A DNA stretch of 64,000 nucleotides, taken from Melioribacteraceae bacterium. GTDB taxonomy: Bacteria > Bacteroidota > Ignavibacteria > Ignavibacteriales > Melioribacteraceae. The position numbers and the translations under genes are program-made. Below, in pieces: positions 11,152-63,366 of the stretch; the stretch's first letter is position 1; the number at the start of each line of letters is the position of its first letter. The notes under the pieces are model-generated. The model saw only the letters and a list, made by a program, of their open reading frames with translations, was not told where the DNA came from and made no database searches. Location: positions 1 to 64,000 of the forward strand of contig WGCV01000041.1 of NCBI GenBank assembly GCA_015493615.1. The letters run 5' to 3'.

Positions 11152-11325
11152 ATTATAGAAGGCTTTGCAAAACCTAATTTATATGTCATTCTGATCCCGC
11201 CTTGGCGGGAGAAGAATCTCAGAACCGGTTATTATACCTAATTTTGAGATATTTCGGACGGCTTCCACCTTCGTCGTGGCGAACTCAATATGACAATTTT
11301 AGGTTATGCAAAGGTTTCTTATAAT
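11152..11325. repeat. Inverted-repeat element, family 2, copy 1
   Basis: This 174-base element is bounded by imperfect inverted ends: attata, gaa, ctttgca and acctaa on the left match the reverse complement of the right end ending at 11325. Inside lie TGTCATTCTGATCC, a GCC-TTGG-CGGG palindrome, AGAAGAATCTC and ATTTCGGACGGCTTCC. A second copy in the opposite orientation lies at 39628-39828, and decayed pieces at 120-165 and 25080-25190. It has no coding capacity. It sits between the 3' end of the RNA methyltransferase gene and the nuo promoter. Confidence 0.7.
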
Positions 11326-34054: not shown

Positions 34055-34190
34055 CGTCATTGCGAGGAGCGAAGCGACGTGGCAATCTCACGGGGAAACA
34101 CGCTATTGCCAAATAATCAGCAACGTTTTAACTGCTAAAGTTGAGCATTTAGGAGATTGCCACACTCACTCCGTTCCGCTCGCAATGACG
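34055..34190. repeat. MITE-like element family 1, copy A
   Basis: The left end CGTCATTGCGAGGAGCGAAG and the right end CCGCTCGCAATGACG are inverted. Inner inverted parts are GGCAATCTC and GAGATTGCC. The core between (TTTTAACTGCTAAAGTTGA) is a diverged version of the core in other copies. It is followed by a T-run. Confidence 0.75.
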
Positions 34191-34211
34191 GTTGTTTTTT
34201 TAGCGCCGTCT

Positions 34212-34355
34212 CGTCATTGCGAACTGCGACGTAAGGAGCAGTGAAGCAATCTCACCGGTAAACTTACCGTTGCCGAATGTTCAAAACCGGTTTAACTGCT
34301 GAGGTTAAAAATTCAGGAGATTGCCACGCTCCACTGCGTTCCGCTCGCAATGACG
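34212..34355. repeat. MITE-like element family 1, copy B
   Basis: The same inverted ends (CGTCATTGCGAACTGCGACG and CGCTCGCAATGACG) and inner AGCAATCTC / GAGATTGCC enclose a core with AAAACCGGTTTAACTGCTGA. It is separated from copy A by 21 bases that include TTAGCGCCGTCT; the same spacer recurs after it. Confidence 0.75.
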
Positions 34356-34377
34356 GTTGTTTTTTTTAGCGCCGTCT

Positions 34378-39627: not shown

Positions 39628-39828
39628 AAGACTCTTTTACTTAGAGATTTTTGCATAACCTAAATTTGTCATATTGAGGACGGTGTAAGCCGTCCGAAAT
39701 ATCTCTAATCCTGTATTATTACCGCTTTTGAGATTCTGATCCCGCTCCGCCTTGGCGGAGGATCAGAATGACAAATAAATTGGATTATTCAAAGCCGTCA
39801 CTTAATCAATATTTTGTAAAAGAGTCTT
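39628..39828. repeat. Inverted-repeat element, family 2, copy 2
   Basis: The element is bounded by a perfect 13-bp inverted repeat AAGACTCTTTTAC / GTAAAAGAGTCTT (39628-39640 and 39816-39828). Within it, TTGCATAACCTAAATTTGTC and AGAATGACAAATAAATTGGA are imperfect inner ends and the body carries GTCCGAAATATCTC and CCGCCTTGGCGGA. Orientation is opposite to copy 1 at 11152-11325. It fills the gap between the EF-G paralogue and the HIT protein gene and could end transcription of the former. Confidence 0.7.
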
Positions 39829-46481: not shown

Positions 46482-46635
46482 CTTTATTGCGAGGAATGAG
46501 CTTGTAACTGACGAAGCAATCTCAGTAGAAAGCATGCGGTTGCTGAATATTCAAATGCGGTTTAACATGGGAGGGTGAATACCCGTGAGTCCGCCAAGGC
46601 GTAGCCGCGCTCACTCCGCTCCTCGCAATGATGAG
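46482..46635. repeat. MITE-like element family 1, copy C
   Basis: The outer ends TTTATTGCGAGGAATGAGC and GCTCCTCGCAATGATGAGA are inverted, with inner AAGCAATCTCA and a core GCGGTTTAACATGGGAGG. The 3' portion carries a GTCCGCCAAGGCG insertion. Downstream, 46650-46800 holds family-2-like pieces (TTGTCATTCTGATACCGCC, AGAAGAATCTCTAATTTAGG). Confidence 0.6.
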
Positions 46636-47012: not shown

Positions 47013-50000
47013 ATGAAAAATCTTCGACCGACAAAACTGCTAATGTTTTTATTAGTCAGTTTATTTACATTCACCTACGTCCAGGCACAAACGCAATCAT
47101 CTCCTGCCGATGGTTCTACTGCTATAGCTTTAGGTAATCAAACATTTGATTGGTCAGCTTATAGTTTTGAGAACGACGGCGTAAATGAGGATGATTACTA
47201 TGTTTTGGAAATAGGTACATCCGCCGGTGCACATGATTTATATCAAACTGCAGCATCGACTTTAACAACTAATTCAGAGACGGTTGATTTATCCGGAGCT
47301 TCTGATAACACAACTTATTATTGGCGTGTTGTTGTCTATGATGACGGCGCTCAAGTTGCAGTGTCCGGTTCCAACTTTACTTTTACAACCGTCCTTGCAA
47401 CCCCAACGCTTGTTGACCCGAGCGGGACATATTCTGCGAACACAGCATTGAACTGGAATATGGCTGGAAATTATTCTAATGTGGATTTTGCTTATTCTGT
47501 TGCTACTGACAACGGATTTACCAATGTAGTAGCTTCAGGAACAGTATCACATGTTTTGACCGCAACAGCAGCTTTACCTTCAGCCGGTGATTACTATTGG
47601 AAGGTTACCGCTACCGTAAATGATGCGGGCGCAGCTAACAATACAGAATCAACAATCAGCGCTACAGGAAGTTTTACGCTCACTATTCCGGGCCCGGCTT
47701 TGACCGCTCCCGTTAACGGTTTAACCGGAGTTTCAGTTGAACCTACCATGACTTGGGGAAGCGTAACCGGAGCGGTATCTTATAAACTTTATGTGGCTAC
47801 CGCAAGTACATTCGGTGCGACAAATATTTATGCGGTTGATCAAGGTACAAATCTTTCAAAAGCATTTACCGAAGCTATTACAAACTTCCCGCTTTCAAAC
47901 GGTACTACTTATTATTGGAAAGTAGCTGCTGTTGATAACGCCGGAACAGAATACGCATCATCAACTTATCATTTCACCACTTTCCCAGATGTCAGCCCAA
48001 CACTAACGAATCCGGCGAATGCTTCTACGGTTTATACTTCATCCGTATTAATGGGATGGACAATCAACCAAGCCGTTGGTACATTGAAGTTTAAACTTCA
48101 GTATCAGGAAACTTCACAGAGTGATAACACGGAACCAACCGCAGGAGAATGGGCGGCAGATGGTTCAGGAACAGATGCGACATCAGTTACTACTACAAAT
48201 TTAAGCTACTCAATAAATGTTAACGGAGGAAGAAAATATTATTGGAGAGTAGTTGTACTTAACTCTTCAAATGAAGTTGAAGATTATTCTTCTGTTTATG
48301 CTTTTACAACTTCCGGCGGTGCGACTGTTAATCCTATTCCTTCCTATCCTATAGGCGGAGCAACAGTTTATACAAATTCCCCGACTTTATATTGGTATGT
48401 TAACGAGTACGCATCTGGAGTAACCTATCAGGTTAGATACGCAACGGCATCTACGGTTGATGGAGACGGTATGTTGACGGATGCAAGCGCGGCAAGTCTT
48501 CCTACTGACGCTAATATTGCAACTGCAACAAGCGCAATGTATAAGGCGCTTTCCGGATTGAATCCGGGAACTACTTACTATTGGGAAGTTCGCGCTTATT
48601 ACTCCGCTACTTCTTCATATGGCGATTGGTCAAGCGTAAACAGCTTTACAACTAACGGCAGCGGAACGCTTGTTGTTCCAACGGTTTCATATCCTAATGG
48701 CGGTTACACTGTTTATACCACATCGCCTTATTTGTATTGGTATATAAGCGGCAGCGGCACTGGTTTAACATATAATGTTCAAGTTGACGACGATGCAGCT
48801 TTTGGAAGTCCTGCATACACCGGTTCAACAACTACCAATGCAACTTATATTCAAGCATCCGGTTTAACTCCGGGAACTACATATTATTGGAGAGTTCAAT
48901 CCGATAACGGAACAAATCAATCGGCATGGTCTTCTTCAGGTACATTTGCCGTTGCAGGTGGAGTTACTAACGGTTATCCTGTGGCTTCTTATCCGACAGG
49001 TAATCCTACTGTTTATTCTGCAAGACCTACATTATACTGGTATCTTGAAGGTTCATCATTAGGATTGACAAAATATGTAGTCAGATATAAAGCGGGCAGC
49101 GCTTCTTCGAATTGGGCTACAACTTATGACGGTACTGCTGATGTTTCTAATCTTAATACTACTTACTGGACATTCACTTCCGATTTGACTTACGGAGAGA
49201 CTTACTATTGGGCTGTTGCAAGTTATGACGGTTCAAGTTACTCTGCATGGTCTCAAGGTTCATTCACAGTTGTAGGGCCCGGAACAGCCGGCGCTCCGAT
49301 TCTTTCATATCCGTCTAACGGCACAACCGTTAACGACCGAGACGTAACTTTGAGCTGGTACATTAACGGCTCCACAACAGGAATAAGTGAATATCAAATT
49401 ACATACAGTACTTCTGATGTATTTGAGTCAAGTGTAACTACAACCACAACAAGTTCGACAAACAGCTTAGCTTTGACTTCACTAACTCCCGGAGCTACTT
49501 ATTATTGGAAAGTCCGTTCTCACTATTCGGGAACTACATATTCCGGTTGGTCCTCAACATATCACTTTACGATAGATCCCGGCGCAAATGCCGTCGTTCC
49601 TTTCCCGGGAAGTCCTGTAGCTCAGGTCTCAGTAAATACTACGTCGCCTGTCCTTTCATGGGCGTTGCCGGCACAGTCGGAATCTGAATTGACTTATACT
49701 ATTGAATATTCAACATCGCCCGATTTCTCGGACGCACAGGAAATTGATAATGTAAATATGCCGTTCAAACAGATTGACGGCTTACAGGCAAATAGATCAT
49801 ATTACTGGAGAGTTAAATCTACCGCATCTAACGGTACGGTTTCTGGTTACTCTCCTGTTGGCGTGTTCAACACTAACGGAGTTACAGGCGTAGAAAATCA
49901 AGGCGGCGAACTTCCCAAGGAATTTGCGGTCATGCAGAACTACCCGAACCCGTTTAATCCGACAACCACGATTAAATATCAGCTGCCTCAAGCGGCTCAT

Positions 50001-50195
50001 GTTACAATCGCGGTTTATAACATTCTCGGTAAAGAGATTGCGACATTAGTTAACGGCAATGTGGAAGCAGGTTATCATTCGGTTATTTGGAATGGTACCA
50101 ATAATTCCGGAGCTAAAGTTAATTCCGGCGTTTACTTCTACAGAGTATCAACTAATTCAAATGTTGCAGTTAAGAAAATGTTACTGCTTAAATAA
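47013..50195 (+). CDS. Large T9SS-exported protein with tandem fibronectin-like repeats
   Basis: This 1060-residue protein has a signal peptide (about 1-25), nine fibronectin-III-like units recognised by the strand YYWxV (TTYYWRV, GDYYWKV, TTYYWKV, RKYYWRV, TTYYWEV, TTYYWRV, ETYYWAV, ATYYWKV, RSYYWRV) and a C-terminal type A sorting domain (MQNYPNPFNPTTTIKYQLP ... YNILGKEIATL). Units three to eight are alike, with repeated phrases SYPxGxxTVYTxSPxLYWY, so they arose by internal duplication. The product should be attached to or released from the cell surface. GGAGGG lies seven bases before the ATG. A CRP/FNR-type palindrome lies upstream and a small membrane peptide gene lies downstream. Confidence 0.85.
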   Translation: MKNLRPTKLLMFLLVSLFTFTYVQAQTQSSPADGSTAIALGNQTFDWSAYSFENDGVNEDDYYVLEIGTSAGAHDLYQTAASTLTTNSETVDLSGASDNTTYYWRVVVYDDGAQVAVSGSNFTFTTVLATPTLVDPSGTYSANTALNWNMAGNYSNVDFAYSVATDNGFTNVVASGTVSHVLTATAALPSAGDYYWKVTATVNDAGAANNTESTISATGSFTLTIPGPALTAPVNGLTGVSVEPTMTWGSVTGAVSYKLYVATASTFGATNIYAVDQGTNLSKAFTEAITNFPLSNGTTYYWKVAAVDNAGTEYASSTYHFTTFPDVSPTLTNPANASTVYTSSVLMGWTINQAVGTLKFKLQYQETSQSDNTEPTAGEWAADGSGTDATSVTTTNLSYSINVNGGRKYYWRVVVLNSSNEVEDYSSVYAFTTSGGATVNPIPSYPIGGATVYTNSPTLYWYVNEYASGVTYQVRYATASTVDGDGMLTDASAASLPTDANIATATSAMYKALSGLNPGTTYYWEVRAYYSATSSYGDWSSVNSFTTNGSGTLVVPTVSYPNGGYTVYTTSPYLYWYISGSGTGLTYNVQVDDDAAFGSPAYTGSTTTNATYIQASGLTPGTTYYWRVQSDNGTNQSAWSSSGTFAVAGGVTNGYPVASYPTGNPTVYSARPTLYWYLEGSSLGLTKYVVRYKAGSASSNWATTYDGTADVSNLNTTYWTFTSDLTYGETYYWAVASYDGSSYSAWSQGSFTVVGPGTAGAPILSYPSNGTTVNDRDVTLSWYINGSTTGISEYQITYSTSDVFESSVTTTTTSSTNSLALTSLTPGATYYWKVRSHYSGTTYSGWSSTYHFTIDPGANAVVPFPGSPVAQVSVNTTSPVLSWALPAQSESELTYTIEYSTSPDFSDAQEIDNVNMPFKQIDGLQANRSYYWRVKSTASNGTVSGYSPVGVFNTNGVTGVENQGGELPKEFAVMQNYPNPFNPTTTIKYQLPQAAHVTIAVYNILGKEIATLVNGNVEAGYHSVIWNGTNNSGAKVNSGVYFYRVSTNSNVAVKKMLLLK

Positions 50196-50478: not shown

Positions 50479-50510
50479 TTGATAGCGTCACGTCATTGCC
50501 AGTGCCGTCT

Positions 50511-50651
50511 CGTCATTGCGAAGGAGGACGAAGGACGACTGAAGCAATCTCAATAGAAAACATGCCAATGCTGAATAATAAAAACCGGTTTAACGGCTGA
50601 GGTTGAATACCGGTGAGATTGCCGCGCTCACTTCGTTCTCTCGCAATGACG
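50511..50651. repeat. MITE-like element family 1, copy D
   Basis: A complete 141-base element: CGTCATTGCGAAGGAGGACG at the left, TCTCGCAATGACG at the right, inner AGCAATCTCA and TGAGATTGCC, and core AAACCGGTTTAACGGCTGAG. Nearly identical to copy E (about six differences by eye). Confidence 0.85.
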
Positions 50652-50727
50652 GCTTGTTTTTTATGTCTTTCCGTTTTTTCGAAATCCGCCAATGGCAGAC
50701 GGCTTGTTTTTGTTGTCATCACCGTCT

Positions 50728-50868
50728 CGTCATTGCGAAGGAGGACGAAGGACGACTGAAGCAATCTCAATAGAAAACATGCAAATGCTGAATAATAAAA
50801 AGCGGTTTAACGGCTGAGGTTGAATATTGGTGAGATTGCCGCGCTCACTCCGTTCGCTCGCAATGACG
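50728..50868. repeat. MITE-like element family 1, copy E
   Basis: The same length (141 bases) and orientation as copy D, 217 bases downstream of it. The 76-base spacer between the copies has no gene. No clear target-site duplication is visible at either copy. Confidence 0.85.
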
Positions 50869-51047
50869 GTTTGTTTTTCTAACACTGGGTTCGCAATGCA
50901 GGTTCTGCTAAAGGTTATTAACTTTTATAACAGTAGCCGTTATACTATTCTCCGGAAAACCAAAAAATCTTTTGCCATTTCATTGTCATTAAATCCAAAA
51001 TGAGTATCTTTTTAAATTAAAAAATGTGCTATTGTAAACGGAGTGTT

Positions 51048-52033: not shown

Positions 52034-54064
52034 ATGAAAAAATTATTTTTCTTTTTGTTTATTCTTGGTTTAACATTAAACGTAAACGGTCAGTTTCGCA
52101 GAATAGCTTTGTTAGAAGAAGCTACCAATGCAAGCTGCGGACCTTGTGCGGCGAACAATCCTCATCTTCAGCAGTTTTTCGAGCATAATTTCGGCGGTGT
52201 AATTTCGGTAAGATATCATTCGTGGTGGCCCGGAACGGACCCCATGTACTCCGACAATACCGCCGACAACAGAGCCAGGATAAATTATTACGGCATTAAC
52301 GGAGTTCCCACTTACACAATGGACGGAGTTGTAAAAGGAATGCCGAGCAATCCGGTTCAGATTGCGGATGCCATGTGGAACGATATTTCATCCGCCTCGC
52401 CGTTTTGGATAAAAGTTTCGGCAAATCCCGAAGGAACAAGTTACAATGTGAATGTAACCGTAATAGTCGGTGATAATGTTACCGCAACAAATCTTTATTT
52501 AAGAACGGCTGTCATCGAAAGAAGGATTCATTTCAGCTCTCCTCCCGGAACTAACGGTGAAAAAGATTTTAACGATGTTATGAGAAAATTACTCCCAAAT
52601 GCAACGGGACAAGCATTAACAAATCTTACTCCCGGTGATACGCTTAATTTCAGTTTTTCCGCAGATATACAGCATAGTTGGAATGTAAGCGATTTAGCCG
52701 CCGTAGCTTGGATTCAGAGCGACGACACAAAAGAAATTCTTCAGTCAAATATCAATATTCCAACCTATGTTATTCAATCAAACCGAAGCAGAGCGGAAAT
52801 TATTTCGGGCGCAAGCGTAATTAATACGGATTACGTTCTATCCAACAATAACAGCGACACAATCGCCGTTCATTTAACGCCTGAAGTTACTCTTTCCGAT
52901 GGCTGGAGTTTTGATATGTATTATGAAGGAAATCCGACGGATGAAATAAACGCTTTGGTCTTGCCGGGCGACACTCTCTTTTTCAGTTCACAAATTACAA
53001 CCGATACCTCGGGAAGCGCAGCTGTCGGGTTGTATGCGCAGAATCTCAGAGATAATTATCAGTATGGATTTACTTCCACCTATTTTGGATTTATTCCCAA
53101 AGGGAAAGTTCTGCTAATTGATGCAGACGGCGCAAATTATGAATCTTACTACGAAACCGCGCTTGATTCCGCTAAGGTTGAATATACGTTTTTAGACAGA
53201 GCTTACTTAAGCGCACTTGGAAACGATTTGCTTACAAGAGGTTTCGAAGCTGTTTACTGGAACGCAGGCTGGGGCTTTCCCGCATTTGTTCAAGCCGATT
53301 TGGATTTCTTAACTCAATTCCTTGATAACGGCGGACGCTTATTTATTGGCGGACAGGACATCGGCTGGGACGTTTTTGATTCGGGCGGAAGCAGTAATTT
53401 TCAGGCTGCAAAAGATTTTTATCATAACTATCTCGGCGCAACTTACATTGCGGATAATTCCGGGATTCACGTTCTAACCGGTGTTGACGGCGATCCGATA
53501 ACGGACGGCTTAGCTTTTAATTTGCGCGCCGTTTATTCTTACTATCCGGAAGTAATAAGACCCAACGGCACGGGAGCAAGTACAATATTGAAGTATTCCA
53601 ACTCAACGCAAATCGGCGCTGTTAAAAACGAAGGGGAAAATTTCAAAACCGTTTATATGGGGTTCGGACTTGAACAGGTAGGAACTGAAACCGCGCGTTT
53701 GCAGCTTGTTAAAAACTCTCTTATTTGGTTTGGCGTTTTGCAGCCGAATTCCGTTTCCGACGAGACGCAAACGCCGCAAGCTTTTGCGCTTGAGCAGAAT
53801 TATCCGAATCCGTTTAATCCTACAACGACAATAAACTATGTCATTGCGAGGAGCGGAGTGACGAATCAACCTCCTGAACTGTCTGTTCAACTAACTATTT
53901 ACGACATCCTCGGACGAGAAGTCGCCACCCTTGTCAACAGTAAACAAGCGCCGGGAACTTACTCGGTTCAGTTTGATGCAAGCAACCTCGGAAGCGGAAT
54001 TTATTTCTACACTTTACGAGCCGGAGATTTTACATCAACAAAAAAGATGACGCTGATTAAATAA
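52034..54064 (+). CDS. T9SS-exported Omp28-like protein with ThuA-like domain
   Basis: This 676-residue protein has a signal peptide (about 1-19), an Omp28-type thioredoxin-fold domain with CxxC in ATNASCGPCAANNP and YYGINGVPTYTMDG, a beta linker, a Rossmann-like domain (about 355-575, GKVLLIDADG ... GGRLFIGGQDIGWDVF) that resembles ThuA/GATase-like folds, and a C-terminal sorting domain (EQNYPNPFNPTTTINY ... YDILGREVATL). The sorting domain carries an odd insert, YVIARSGVTNQPP at about residues 602-614, translated from a family-1 repeat end (53840-53869). It is probably a cell-surface thiol/disulfide or binding protein. Confidence 0.78.
   Translation: MKKLFFFLFILGLTLNVNGQFRRIALLEEATNASCGPCAANNPHLQQFFEHNFGGVISVRYHSWWPGTDPMYSDNTADNRARINYYGINGVPTYTMDGVVKGMPSNPVQIADAMWNDISSASPFWIKVSANPEGTSYNVNVTVIVGDNVTATNLYLRTAVIERRIHFSSPPGTNGEKDFNDVMRKLLPNATGQALTNLTPGDTLNFSFSADIQHSWNVSDLAAVAWIQSDDTKEILQSNINIPTYVIQSNRSRAEIISGASVINTDYVLSNNNSDTIAVHLTPEVTLSDGWSFDMYYEGNPTDEINALVLPGDTLFFSSQITTDTSGSAAVGLYAQNLRDNYQYGFTSTYFGFIPKGKVLLIDADGANYESYYETALDSAKVEYTFLDRAYLSALGNDLLTRGFEAVYWNAGWGFPAFVQADLDFLTQFLDNGGRLFIGGQDIGWDVFDSGGSSNFQAAKDFYHNYLGATYIADNSGIHVLTGVDGDPITDGLAFNLRAVYSYYPEVIRPNGTGASTILKYSNSTQIGAVKNEGENFKTVYMGFGLEQVGTETARLQLVKNSLIWFGVLQPNSVSDETQTPQAFALEQNYPNPFNPTTTINYVIARSGVTNQPPELSVQLTIYDILGREVATLVNSKQAPGTYSVQFDASNLGSGIYFYTLRAGDFTSTKKMTLIK
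53840..53869 (+). repeat. Family 1 repeat end embedded in a coding sequence
   Basis: GTCATTGCGAGGAGCGGAGT followed by GACGAATCAA matches the left end of the 140-base element family found between genes. It is read in frame as VIARSGVTNQ inside the T9SS sorting domain of the host gene. Only the end is present. Confidence 0.8.
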
Positions 54065-54067
54065 GTT

Positions 54068-54258
54068 GTCAGTAATCAGTTATGAGTAATCAGTTATCAG
54101 TAATGAGTTATGAGTGATGAGAAAACAAAAAAAGAGTAACAAATTATTGTGAGTAACGGAAGCAATAATAATTATTAGATTGTTTCTCTTTACTCATAAC
54201 TCATCACGCATCACGCATCACGCATCACGCATTACTCATTACTCATCACTCATTACTA
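54068..54258. repeat. Inverted arrays of seven-base repeats
   Basis: The left arm (54068-54122) is made of variants of GTAATCA, GTTATGA, GTAATGA and GTGATGA; the right arm (54190-54258) of CTCATAA, CTCATCA, CGCATCA (four times) and CTCATTA. The arms are in reverse complement, separated by about 67 AT-rich bases, so the region can fold into a large imperfect stem. It fills the whole gap between two T9SS protein genes and ends just before the ribosome site of the second. Confidence 0.8.
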
Positions 54259-54279: not shown

Positions 54280-55041
54280 GTGAAACATATTCTTGTTATT
54301 TTGTTTCTTTTATTATCGGTTAATATCAAAGCGCAGAGTTTTACCGTAATCGCCGACACTACTGTCGCAAACGATTCATTGAATTCCGAGATGATATTCA
54401 ATCTTACCGTAACAAATATCAGTAACGGGGATTTAACTTTTTATGTGAAGCGCACTGTTAACAATCTTCCCGCGGATTGGACATCTTCATTATGTTTCAG
54501 TTTCTGTTTTTCACCGACTTTAGACAGCATTGCCACAACGTCTGATTTCGGCGCGCGAGCTTTATCGCCAGGGGAATCACGTGAGCTTTCGCTCCATGTT
54601 TTTCCTCACACAAATTACGGCTCCGGAATTGTAACGCTAAGATTCGGCGACGCTTTTAATTTTGCAGATTCATCCGTAATTAGTTTTACGGCAAACGCAA
54701 ATCCCACAGGCGTTGAGGAAAACAGGGGAGCGCCGTCCGGGTTCAAATTGTTTCAGAACTATCCTAACCCGTTGTCGTTAAAAGGGAACGGGCGGGGAAG
54801 CGCCGTTACTACCATTCGATATAAGATTGCTTCCGTCGGTAAGAATTCCGTGCAGGAGAATGTTAAACTGACGCTTTATAATATTCTCGGTGAAAAAGTT
54901 AAAACGCTGGTTGATAAAACCATGCAGCCGGGCGTTCACGAAGTTAAGCTGCAAGCGAGCGATTTACCCGCAGGAATTTATTTCTACAGGTTAACCGCCG
55001 GAAGATTTTCCGCTGCGAAGAAAATGATTTTGATAAGATAA
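54280..55041 (+). CDS. T9SS-exported Ig-like protein
   Basis: This 253-residue protein has a signal peptide (about 1-19), one Ig-like beta domain of about 125 residues (SFTVIADTTVANDSLNSEM ... SSVISFTANANP) with a cysteine pair SSLCFSFCFSP, and a C-terminal sorting domain NYPNP ... YNILGEKVKTLV. The sorting domain is atypical: the usual FNPTTTI is replaced by a 12-residue insert before TTIRYKIA, and a second insert follows. The GTG start at 54280 is preceded by GGGAG. The gene lies between an Omp28-like gene and a TlpA-like thioredoxin gene, 20 bases upstream of the latter. Confidence 0.75.
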   Translation: MKHILVILFLLLSVNIKAQSFTVIADTTVANDSLNSEMIFNLTVTNISNGDLTFYVKRTVNNLPADWTSSLCFSFCFSPTLDSIATTSDFGARALSPGESRELSLHVFPHTNYGSGIVTLRFGDAFNFADSSVISFTANANPTGVEENRGAPSGFKLFQNYPNPLSLKGNGRGSAVTTIRYKIASVGKNSVQENVKLTLYNILGEKVKTLVDKTMQPGVHEVKLQASDLPAGIYFYRLTAGRFSAAKKMILIR

Positions 55042-58056: not shown

Positions 58057-58175
58057 CGTATCAACTCCAATTTTTTACTCTCGAAAAATATATATTTTCT
58101 AAGACTTTTCACAATCCGGCATTTTTTATCTGTTTAAATTATGATTATAGAACATAAAAACATAAATAACACACT

Positions 58176-58320
58176 GTCATTGCGAGCGACCGTAGGAAGC
58201 GTGGCTCCGCCTAGGCGGACTCACCAGTATTCAACCTCAGCCGTTAAACCGTTATTGAATTTTCGGAATTAGTGTGTTTGTTAGTGAGATTGCTTCGTCT
58301 CATCGTTCCTCGCAATGACG
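58176..58320. repeat. MITE-like element family 1, copy F (reverse orientation)
   Basis: The left end GTCATTGCGAGCGACC and the right end GTTCCTCGCAATGACG are inverted, and the core (TATTCAACCTCAGCCGTTAAA) is the reverse complement of the core in copies D and E, so the element is in opposite orientation. An insertion GCTCCGCCTAGGCGGACTC lies in the left arm. The rest of the gap 58057-58514 shows no gene. Confidence 0.75.
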
Positions 58321-58514
58321 AGACGGTGTTGTCGTGATTGAAACATAAACACCTATCGTAGTAAGCCGCAATATGCCAAGGCAGACAATGGAGCAAAGGT
58401 AATAAATCTATGAACCTCTGTGGATATGAACCTTGATTTTATGTTTCATGACAATAATCTTAGCAAAAATCACAAGAATTTAAACTTAAATATCATAAAC
58501 AATTTTATGAAACG

Positions 58515-62400: not shown

Positions 62401-63366
62401 GGAATTAATGATCCGTTAAATCACGAAGATCTCGGCGTAATAAACTGGACAAACGATGGTTCCGGAAACGCCGGTGAAGGCGACGCTAATTTGGACGATG
62501 ATATTGATTTAACGGACTTTTTAGCGACTGTTGACCATTACACATACGGCGGAGATTTTACTCTGACCGGCAACGGGTTTACAAATGCGGATATTGACAG
62601 CAACGATGTTGTGGACGCGTGCGACGCTTCTGAGCTTCTTTCATTCCTCACCAACGGATGTTTCCCCGGTGTCTTTGGCGGAAATCAGCCTGCCGGGGGA
62701 TTTGTTCCCGCTGCGGTTAACGTTAATCCCGATAATAACGAGGCGACAATCACACTCAACACTTCCGACGCTGAAAATCTGAATAATATGACTATCACAT
62801 TTAATTATGATACAACTCAAATAAATTACGAAGCGTTCTCGTCGATTCAAATCGGGAACGGCAATTATGTTCACGCTTCAAGCGTCGCTCCGGGAAAAGT
62901 TGTGTTTACGTTCAATGCTCCTACGCAGCTCTCCGGAAATTTTGAGCTTGGCGATATTCTTGTTAATTACACTGATACAAAAGGAGACATTCAGATTCAC
63001 ACTACATATTCCTATGACGGGATCAATCAGATTGAAGGACCGGTAATAACCTTTAATCCTAACGGAGTTGAAGATGAAATTAAACCGACTGCATTTAAGT
63101 TGGAACAGAATTATCCTAACCCGTTTAATCCTTCAACCACGATTAAATTTGCAATTCCTCAAAAGGAATTTGTTTCCCTTAAAATTTACGACATACTGGG
63201 AAGAGAAGTGAAAACACTTTTATCCGAAGATAGAAATGTTGGAACATATTCAGTTAAATGGAACGGAGTTGATAATTCGGGAAACAGAATTTCCTCCGGC
63301 GTTTATTTCTACAGACTAAAAGCCGGCAACTTTACACAAGTTAAAAAAATGGTACTACTTAAGTAA
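59485..63366 (+). CDS. Giant T9SS protein: choice-of-anchor A, thioester, Big_1, propeller, cohesin/dockerin-like
   Basis: This 1293-residue exported protein has, in order: signal peptide (1-21); a choice-of-anchor A domain (about 25-272); a thioester-type domain (about 285-420) with SYYCIDIS (Cys328) and AAAVQCAIWHFSDG (Gln382), the pair that forms the internal thioester in the TED family of adhesins; an invasin/Big_1-like domain (424-518); a beta-propeller-like region (about 560-850, repeated V-W/F-A-T/V-blades); a cohesin-like sandwich (856-990); two dockerin-type EF-hand-like loops (999-1012, 1035-1052); a second beta sandwich (1075-1190) and a sorting domain (1205-1293). It probably works as a covalent-binding surface adhesin. 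AGGAGG lies upstream of the ATG. Confidence 0.8.
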   Translation: MYKKYLAFIILFISVISLNAQSNHSNLGEANQYNLFVIGNAQLSSADIQGVVAVGGNANITNFSIGDQIPNSSGAVNVLTVGDSLWYSGGRVYSGNVVYGEFADVSDNLILDGEGTVFQGSPIDFANIGIEIADISIQWSGIAANGSAEFSNNVLTLTGVNSGLNVFTVSGDTLASANGVTINSPEGSTVIVNISGSNITWQGDNDITGTNQTNVIYNFFEADTVNIGGIAVKGSILAPFANLFFTSGQINGNVICHDITSEGQINYSYFNGNVQYSSSEVSSSCTVTMKNVLQGQSVRLSEAFDGHRNLWAGTILGQMNTHGTSYYCIDISHYLKWNRPYEYDGAITGPVAYILRNYYPRIPYTGDNGQLNRERKEAAAVQCAIWHFSDGFDPNLISNNNQIKNRALAIIDDAVGQNPVPISTFYVQPASQVVQTGQTAMLTVVLRDADGNPVPNAYVTLETTAGTLVPSEGTTDANGELVVALQYDENENPESAQITVNTDDGIVPEGTRYIYPNSQTLVTNDELVTCMTTVANVYWSGSALPGNDFDFYMFTTTNSGLPTTGLTTVAAMDDYVYFGASTGFYRYDRANDTFEQINLNYTNVSEVFAYDDDNGDRNIFVGFESGGFAYKHGNDDFVYYDSNNGFAGSKITDFEHYTGNNSDLILISHDAGISFFNPSNGMFSNISSTNSDLPAGTCYDATIDDDGGVWVATDHGIAYSTDFGGTWQVFNPQNSDINGTFVRSIAYGDGEVYVGTFYSGLCGYNIESGVWTNYTPFISTQPVMNLHFADGKLFIANWSEGLYVYSNGNFKQYSSVNPNNAPTIIEDFWFDGTDFWFAVQDGLSRTINGITASTGDAAIVITDNSTYAGGTTTLNCNLVPNGEISFQSLTGTIEYNPNELEFIDYTTQELFADCVFHFSETSSGRITYKAICPEDSPITSEGTMFSLTFKVKEEMAPLGGGIIAVFAPMFTAGINDPLNHEDLGVINWTNDGSGNAGEGDANLDDDIDLTDFLATVDHYTYGGDFTLTGNGFTNADIDSNDVVDACDASELLSFLTNGCFPGVFGGNQPAGGFVPAAVNVNPDNNEATITLNTSDAENLNNMTITFNYDTTQINYEAFSSIQIGNGNYVHASSVAPGKVVFTFNAPTQLSGNFELGDILVNYTDTKGDIQIHTTYSYDGINQIEGPVITFNPNGVEDEIKPTAFKLEQNYPNPFNPSTTIKFAIPQKEFVSLKIYDILGREVKTLLSEDRNVGTYSVKWNGVDNSGNRISSGVYFYRLKAGNFTQVKKMVLLK

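Follow-up and report, generated by a model that had tools for sequence, protein, structure and literature searches.

A sorting domain with repeat sequence in its first loop

The window, i.e. the whole 64,000-nt stretch analysed, belongs to a Melioribacteraceae genome of 3.15 Mb in 67 contigs; what is said about the whole genome is based on searches and on stretches retrieved from it. It contains several genes for proteins with a C-terminal T9SS sorting domain (CTD) and six intergenic copies of a repeat element:

52034–54064, + strand: ORF of 676 aa, Omp28-like passenger (PF11551) followed by a C-terminal T9SS type A sorting domain (profile matches)
53798–54061, + strand: T9SS sorting domain of this ORF, NYPNPF...KKMTLIK (TIGR04183; profile and structure model)
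53840–53873, + strand: left end of a CGTC-type REP, read in frame as VIARSGVTNQP in the beta1-beta2 loop (exact 20-mer; 34 nt at 82%; model)
53873–53893, + strand: what is probably left of an earlier GTAG palindrome's right half (..GAACTGTCTGTTCAACTA), read as (P)ELSVQL (15-base match and tree)
54757–55038, + strand: CTD of the following gene; its expanded loop is a different one, and the second site has an insert, PNP-LSLKGNGRGSAV-TTI (54766–54801)
49938–50192, + strand: sorting domain with a short normal loop (control)
63109–63363, + strand: sorting domain with a short normal loop (control)
34055–34193, + strand: intergenic element copy with both ends, CGTCATTGCGAG...CTCGCAATGACGG
34209–34358, + strand: intergenic element copy
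46510–46635, − strand: intergenic element copy, whose head ATCATTGCGAGGAGCGGAGT comes closest within the window to the sequence at 53840 (1 mismatch)
50508–50658, + strand: intergenic element copy
50725–50875, + strand: intergenic element copy with 95% identity to the one lying 217 bases upstream
58168–58323, − strand: intergenic element copy with a nested TCCGCCTAGGCGGA palindrome

The 676-aa ORF matched TIGR04183 with 43.1–46.1 bits, above the curated NCBIfam cut-off of 23, and PF18962/Por_Secre_tail with 43 bits versus a Pfam cut-off of 27. The sorting-domain profile match spans residues 590–672 of 676 and thus the C terminus of the protein. Across the loop the ORF reads NPTTTINY-VIARSGVTNQPPELS-VQLTIYDILGRE, and over a longer stretch NYPNPFNPTTTINY-VIARSGVTNQPPELS-VQLTIYDILGREVATLVN...KKMTLIK. 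Rfam yielded no relevant match around this position. Right behind the stop codon, the window positions 54061–54246 are occupied by an inverted array of AGTAATGAGTTATGAGTGATGAG-like units with arms of 64 nt and a spacing of 58 nt.

The original prediction placed the left end of the intergenic element in frame within this sorting domain. This was affirmed by an exact match of the 20-mer GTCATTGCGAGGAGCGGAGT at 53840–53859 on the + strand, and the similarity to the element copy at 34056 covers 34 bases with 82% identity, reaching 53873 rather than the 53869 first proposed. The element is a true repeat: three copies of GTCATTGCGAGGAGCGGAGT were found in the window at up to 3 mismatches, 35 element heads occurred genome-wide at the same threshold with 0 in the reversed control, and a BLAST search with a full copy gave 61 matches across the genome. 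The CGTC tag is present in most intergenic copies and in the CTD inserts of L024, L099, L103 and L106; the insert at 53840–53873 reads TGTC, the Tyr codon being TAT instead of TAC. That ordinary codon evolution generated a chance likeness to the repeat is practically inconceivable, since the match, although short, includes an exact 20-mer of which 0 matches were expected (100 dinucleotide shuffles of the window), reversed controls gave 0, relatives carry whole in-frame elements and orthologues lack the loop. A further family of intergenic repeats, GAAGGCTTTG.. / GGATCAGAATGACA, lies at 11153–11319 and 39643–39799 of the window in opposite orientations, the two copies being 85–89% complementary.

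Comparison with orthologues had been set beforehand as the refutation test of the prediction, and the loop was absent from them. Orthologues with 33–53% identity carry the loops SIPQNTDYNSLLQT, FLPSNGL, QLVEDSH, NVPKESF and TIPTVVDANFASTTS, and none of those compared has a VIARS loop, so the insert is specific to this lineage's copy. The loop of the G062 orthologue, SLPGVGTTHGLS, may represent a worn GTAG insert.

The structure model of the CTD (pLDDT 85.9) is a beta-sandwich with six strands of at least 3 residues (25–32, 44–52, 57–66, 69–76, 83–91 and 94–102) and no helix. The element-derived VI corresponds to model residues 31–32 at the end of beta1, while residues 33–43 form a lower-confidence loop between confident strands. 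Among the best PDB matches of the model were the CTDs of NucA (8glk_D, T9SS-bound; E 1.7e-3) and mirolase (8qb1_A; E 2.5e-3), which other Ig-like folds equalled or surpassed. Functional motifs of CTDs have been assigned to L-beta3-beta4 and the C terminus (PMC11285876), and the surface contacting the translocon is poorly conserved except for one lysine (PMC10994853). Strand alternation may place the beta1-beta2 loop on the edge that also bears L-beta3-beta4. The prediction that the first loop of the domain accepts insertions agrees with the modelled loop and, as inferred from intact genes, with the preservation of both the reading frame and the conserved remainder of the CTD in every carrier; the secretion machinery would then tolerate these inserts.

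Expanded loops and the GTAG palindrome in this genome

TIGR04183 matches identified 101 CTDs in the genome, 78 of which were C-terminal domains read complete. A normal loop, counted from TTIxY to VxLxxYDxLG, has about 7 residues (e.g. SIPKSGM) and was found in 39 of the 76 CTDs analysed. Repeat sequence in the beta1-beta2 loop was shared by about 27 CTDs of the genome, which upholds the in-frame insertion event described originally but makes a single event too small a description. Sequence of the CGTC element occupies the loop in at least eight CTDs, as in VIARSEATRQSPELS. The L103 loop VIASGAKQSQESLANNEIASSQAPRNDN holds the whole element with both ends in frame, and in the L106 loop VIARSEATMAPPRRTSELS the palindrome TCCGCCTAGGCGGA is nested in frame in the CGTC insert, like in the intergenic copy at 58168. 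The claim that element fragments enter coding DNA holds: 4 of the 30 CGTC heads with context lie within long ORFs, all four in CTD loops, and 26 lie outside; some named MAGs provided whole elements in the loop.

VETRHALS(L) or a near variant occurs in 18 complete CTDs, encoded by the 28-bp palindrome GTAGAGACAAGGCATGCCTTGTCTCTAC, whose two ends are GT[AG]G and C[TC]AC and which fits a double-foot GTAG REP as defined in PMC6006769. Strong hairpins (score of at least 10) were present in 17 of 37 expanded loops of this genome and in 0 of 37 normal-length loops. A second acceptor site lies between PNPF and TTI, where L097 carries TCCGCCAAAGGCGGA and L099, L100 and L101 have similar inserts.

Genome-wide, 19 sites matched the GTAG palindrome with up to 2 mismatches, and 18 of these are CTD loops. 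The 19th lies in a REP-associated tyrosine transposase (RAYT), just past the HUH motif (GEFIVMPNHVHGI..VETRHALSL), and is read in the same frame as in the CTDs. This ORF (L124/L358) was missed by the PF01797 profile and matched NF047646 with E 8e-18 and 64.7 bits, which is below the curated NCBIfam equivalog cut-off of 80. No GTAG palindromes were found beside the five PF01797 transposases of the genome, and only one CGTC element was found near one of them (L235). In-frame residence of double-foot REPs in their own tnpA_REP, between the HuH and Y motifs, is known for subclass 2.4 (Quentin 2018, PMC6006769). The palindrome architecture and the in-frame position after HuH are alike here, and the transposase of this genome shares the motifs NHVH, WQ and YINNP with subclass 2.4; what differs is that this REP class also resides in the loops of T9SS sorting domains, read in the same frame (V-E-T-x-H-A in this genome). 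The GTAG-type REP would be mobilised by the TnpA_REP/RAYT enzyme whose gene itself contains this palindrome. CTD and RAYT palindromes had been expected to agree within each genome; an exact match was found in the window's genome only, and none among the RAYT genes examined in G050, G005 and G014, so that RAYT is a candidate mobiliser.

Among TnpA_REP genes of relatives (L358–L387), a strong, gene-specific palindrome follows the gene's own HUH motif in 23 of 26 parsed. This diversity is large for one family of Ignavibacteria, the residence itself being known from subclass 2.4.

Recurrence in relatives

A pattern for expanded-loop CTDs gave matches in 28 of 38 relatives, and many of the palindromes are genome-specific. 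The loop palindromes recorded by genome are:

G036: GTAGAGACGGGGCATGCCCCGTCTCTAC
G021: CCTCCCCTTTGGCAAAGGGGAGG
G028: GTAGGGGCACGATGCATCGTGCCCGTAC
G011: CTGCCTGCCGGCAGGCAG
G006: CTCCTTACCAAGGAG
G024: GTCACCCTGAGCGAAGTCGAAGAG
G050: GTAGAGACGGGATATATCCCGTCTCTAC

Strong hairpins (score of at least 10) occurred in 18 of 80 expanded loops of relatives, the overall range including the window's genome being 22–46%, versus 0–0.3% in the controls (dinucleotide shuffles and other windows of the same domains). Of 294 genomes of the class, 17 had GTAGAGAC in the context T-x-I-x-Y-x-I-P-x at exactly the same codon, while the reversed control gave 0. CTD loops account for at least 15 of the roughly 26 TCCTCCCCTTTGGCAAAGGGGAGGA sites in G021. 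Most of the named MAGs in which a CGTC head sits in the loop belong to Melioribacteraceae or Ignavibacteriaceae, and at five MAG loci (L314, L323, L324, L325 and L327) the loop holds the whole element with both ends in frame.

Among the GTAG palindromes of the family whose context was checked, 15 were coding, all in real ORFs (9 CTDs and 6 transposases), and 7 were intergenic. Seven of the nine CTDs carry the palindrome in the beta1-beta2 loop and two in the loop before SGVYFY. In L331 and L352, GTAG palindromes in this second CTD loop, before SGVYFY, stand in place of DASxL and read VETxHA. A GTAG match in the uvrA-like L343 was non-palindromic and discarded as a chance match.

Altogether, the beta1-beta2 loop of type A T9SS CTDs is very likely a recurrent REP acceptor in Melioribacteraceae and Ignavibacteriaceae, spread by CTD duplication. 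Different REP families (CGTC, double-foot GTAG, CCTCCCC..GGGGAGG and others) have entered the same loop in different genomes. Insertions would survive if they consist of whole codons without a stop and fall into the turn between two strands, where the domain still folds, and duplication and shuffling of the CTD cassette would then carry them into many secreted proteins. Neither a filled/empty strain pair nor a target duplication was seen, which counts against recurrent insertion, as does the finding that about half of the expanded loops have no detectable palindrome.

CGTC and GTAG REPs, including intragenic REPs coding for 20–30 aa, have already been described (Di Nocera 2013, PMC3733652). 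The intergenic copies found here share the CGTC tag with them, and the palindrome ends in GTAG. That survey put the stress on DNA replication and repair genes and on mostly different sites, and its searched text made no mention of Ignavibacteria (PMC3733652). Rickettsia palindromic elements, which insert in frame into protein-coding genes (discussed in PMC3733652), are a functional analogy: there, too, selfish palindromic DNA is translated and gives otherwise normal proteins an additional surface segment. However, they hit many unrelated genes, whereas here one loop of one repeated secretion-signal domain receives several unrelated palindrome families. In the open-access literature searched, we came across no account of T9SS sorting domains acting repeatedly as REP acceptors. 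In-frame REPs are usually seen as scattered curiosities; here they concern one export-signal loop and several palindrome families in a bacterial order. This also accounts for odd loop peptides such as VIARSEATRQS, VETRHALS and TSSPLAKGRTEEG in annotated sorting domains, and makes it testable now which part of the T9SS signal may vary freely.

DNA-level conservation and the history of the inserts

In a tree of 76 CTDs of this genome, built from the sequence downstream of the loop, GTAG and CGTC carriers fall essentially into a single clade (28 rows, SH-aLRT 97) in which the two types are intermingled and CGTC carriers nest among GTAG carriers. Since the carriers are one clade, many copies arose by CTD duplication and not by separate insertion. 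It could therefore be argued that one ancient insertion per lineage was spread by CTD duplication alone and that the loop has no special role. The single clade in this genome and the identical junctions in L001, L024, L030, L071 and L075 are in favour of this explanation. Between genomes it is refuted by unrelated palindromes at the same codon position. Within the clade, the intermingled types and at least four CGTC changes forced by the starred branches speak against it, as do L099, L103, L106 and L101 with their differing junctions or nested repeats. Overall we regard a single insertion per lineage as very unlikely.

For this genome the palindromes themselves were compared codon by codon, using 16 intact CTDs with the GTAG insert that had been selected on their protein sequence. 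No synonymous difference was detected within the palindrome in 945 pairwise codon comparisons, while synonymous differences amounted to 55% in the left and 42% in the right flanks of the same CTDs; 0/945 versus about 0.5 does not fit plain inheritance from one insertion either. In G050 the respective values were 3% in the palindrome and 29–42% in the flanks, and in G021 9% and 35–43%, both sets being less independent because the first was found via the first 8 palindrome bases and the second partly via the palindrome. Location in one clade implies that the cassettes are related, yet the palindrome has aged unlike its flanks. DNA-identical palindromes inside coding sequence with synonymously saturated flanks thus pose a puzzle, for which the options are recent re-templating by REP activity or gene conversion, or selection at the nucleic-acid level.

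Under the last option, the palindrome would be kept for a role of the DNA or RNA, either as an mRNA hairpin or as a recombination signal for CTD cassette exchange between passengers. Near-zero synonymous change in the palindromes of three genomes next to saturated flanking codons is consistent with this, and so is the L072 copy, in which a symmetric change affected both arms (AAGG/CCTT to AGGG/CCCT). Nevertheless, most CTDs do without a palindrome (39 of the 76 analysed have normal loops), decayed palindromes persist as loops (L104, and L229 and L230 of G017), and the same data are explained if copies were recently re-inserted, or spread by gene conversion, from one shared source. We therefore consider such a role rather unlikely. 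Quite unlikely, too, is that the loop is a maintained docking site in which palindromes promote exchange or conversion of CTD cassettes, or are re-templated by REP transposases; were this true, selfish palindrome and secretion signal would spread together.

Returning to recurrent insertion into the loop, the insert at 53840–53893 would be two-layered, with the left end of a CGTC REP followed by what remains of an earlier GTAG REP, namely its worn right half. Downstream of the element, seven CGTC-type loops matched the right half of the GTAG palindrome in 9–10 of the first 15 bases, versus a mean of 4.8 and a maximum of 10 of 15 in a control of 52 CTDs. This right-half match and the nested tree position of the CGTC carriers suggest, with moderate strength, both the two layers and their order: the GTAG REP would have come first and later lost its left half to a CGTC REP.

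The loop offers dozens of natural replicates of selfish DNA turned into protein, with worn copies showing the later fate. At L104, L229 and L230 worn GTAG palindromes remain as loops of the same length, which suggests later domestication of the peptide.
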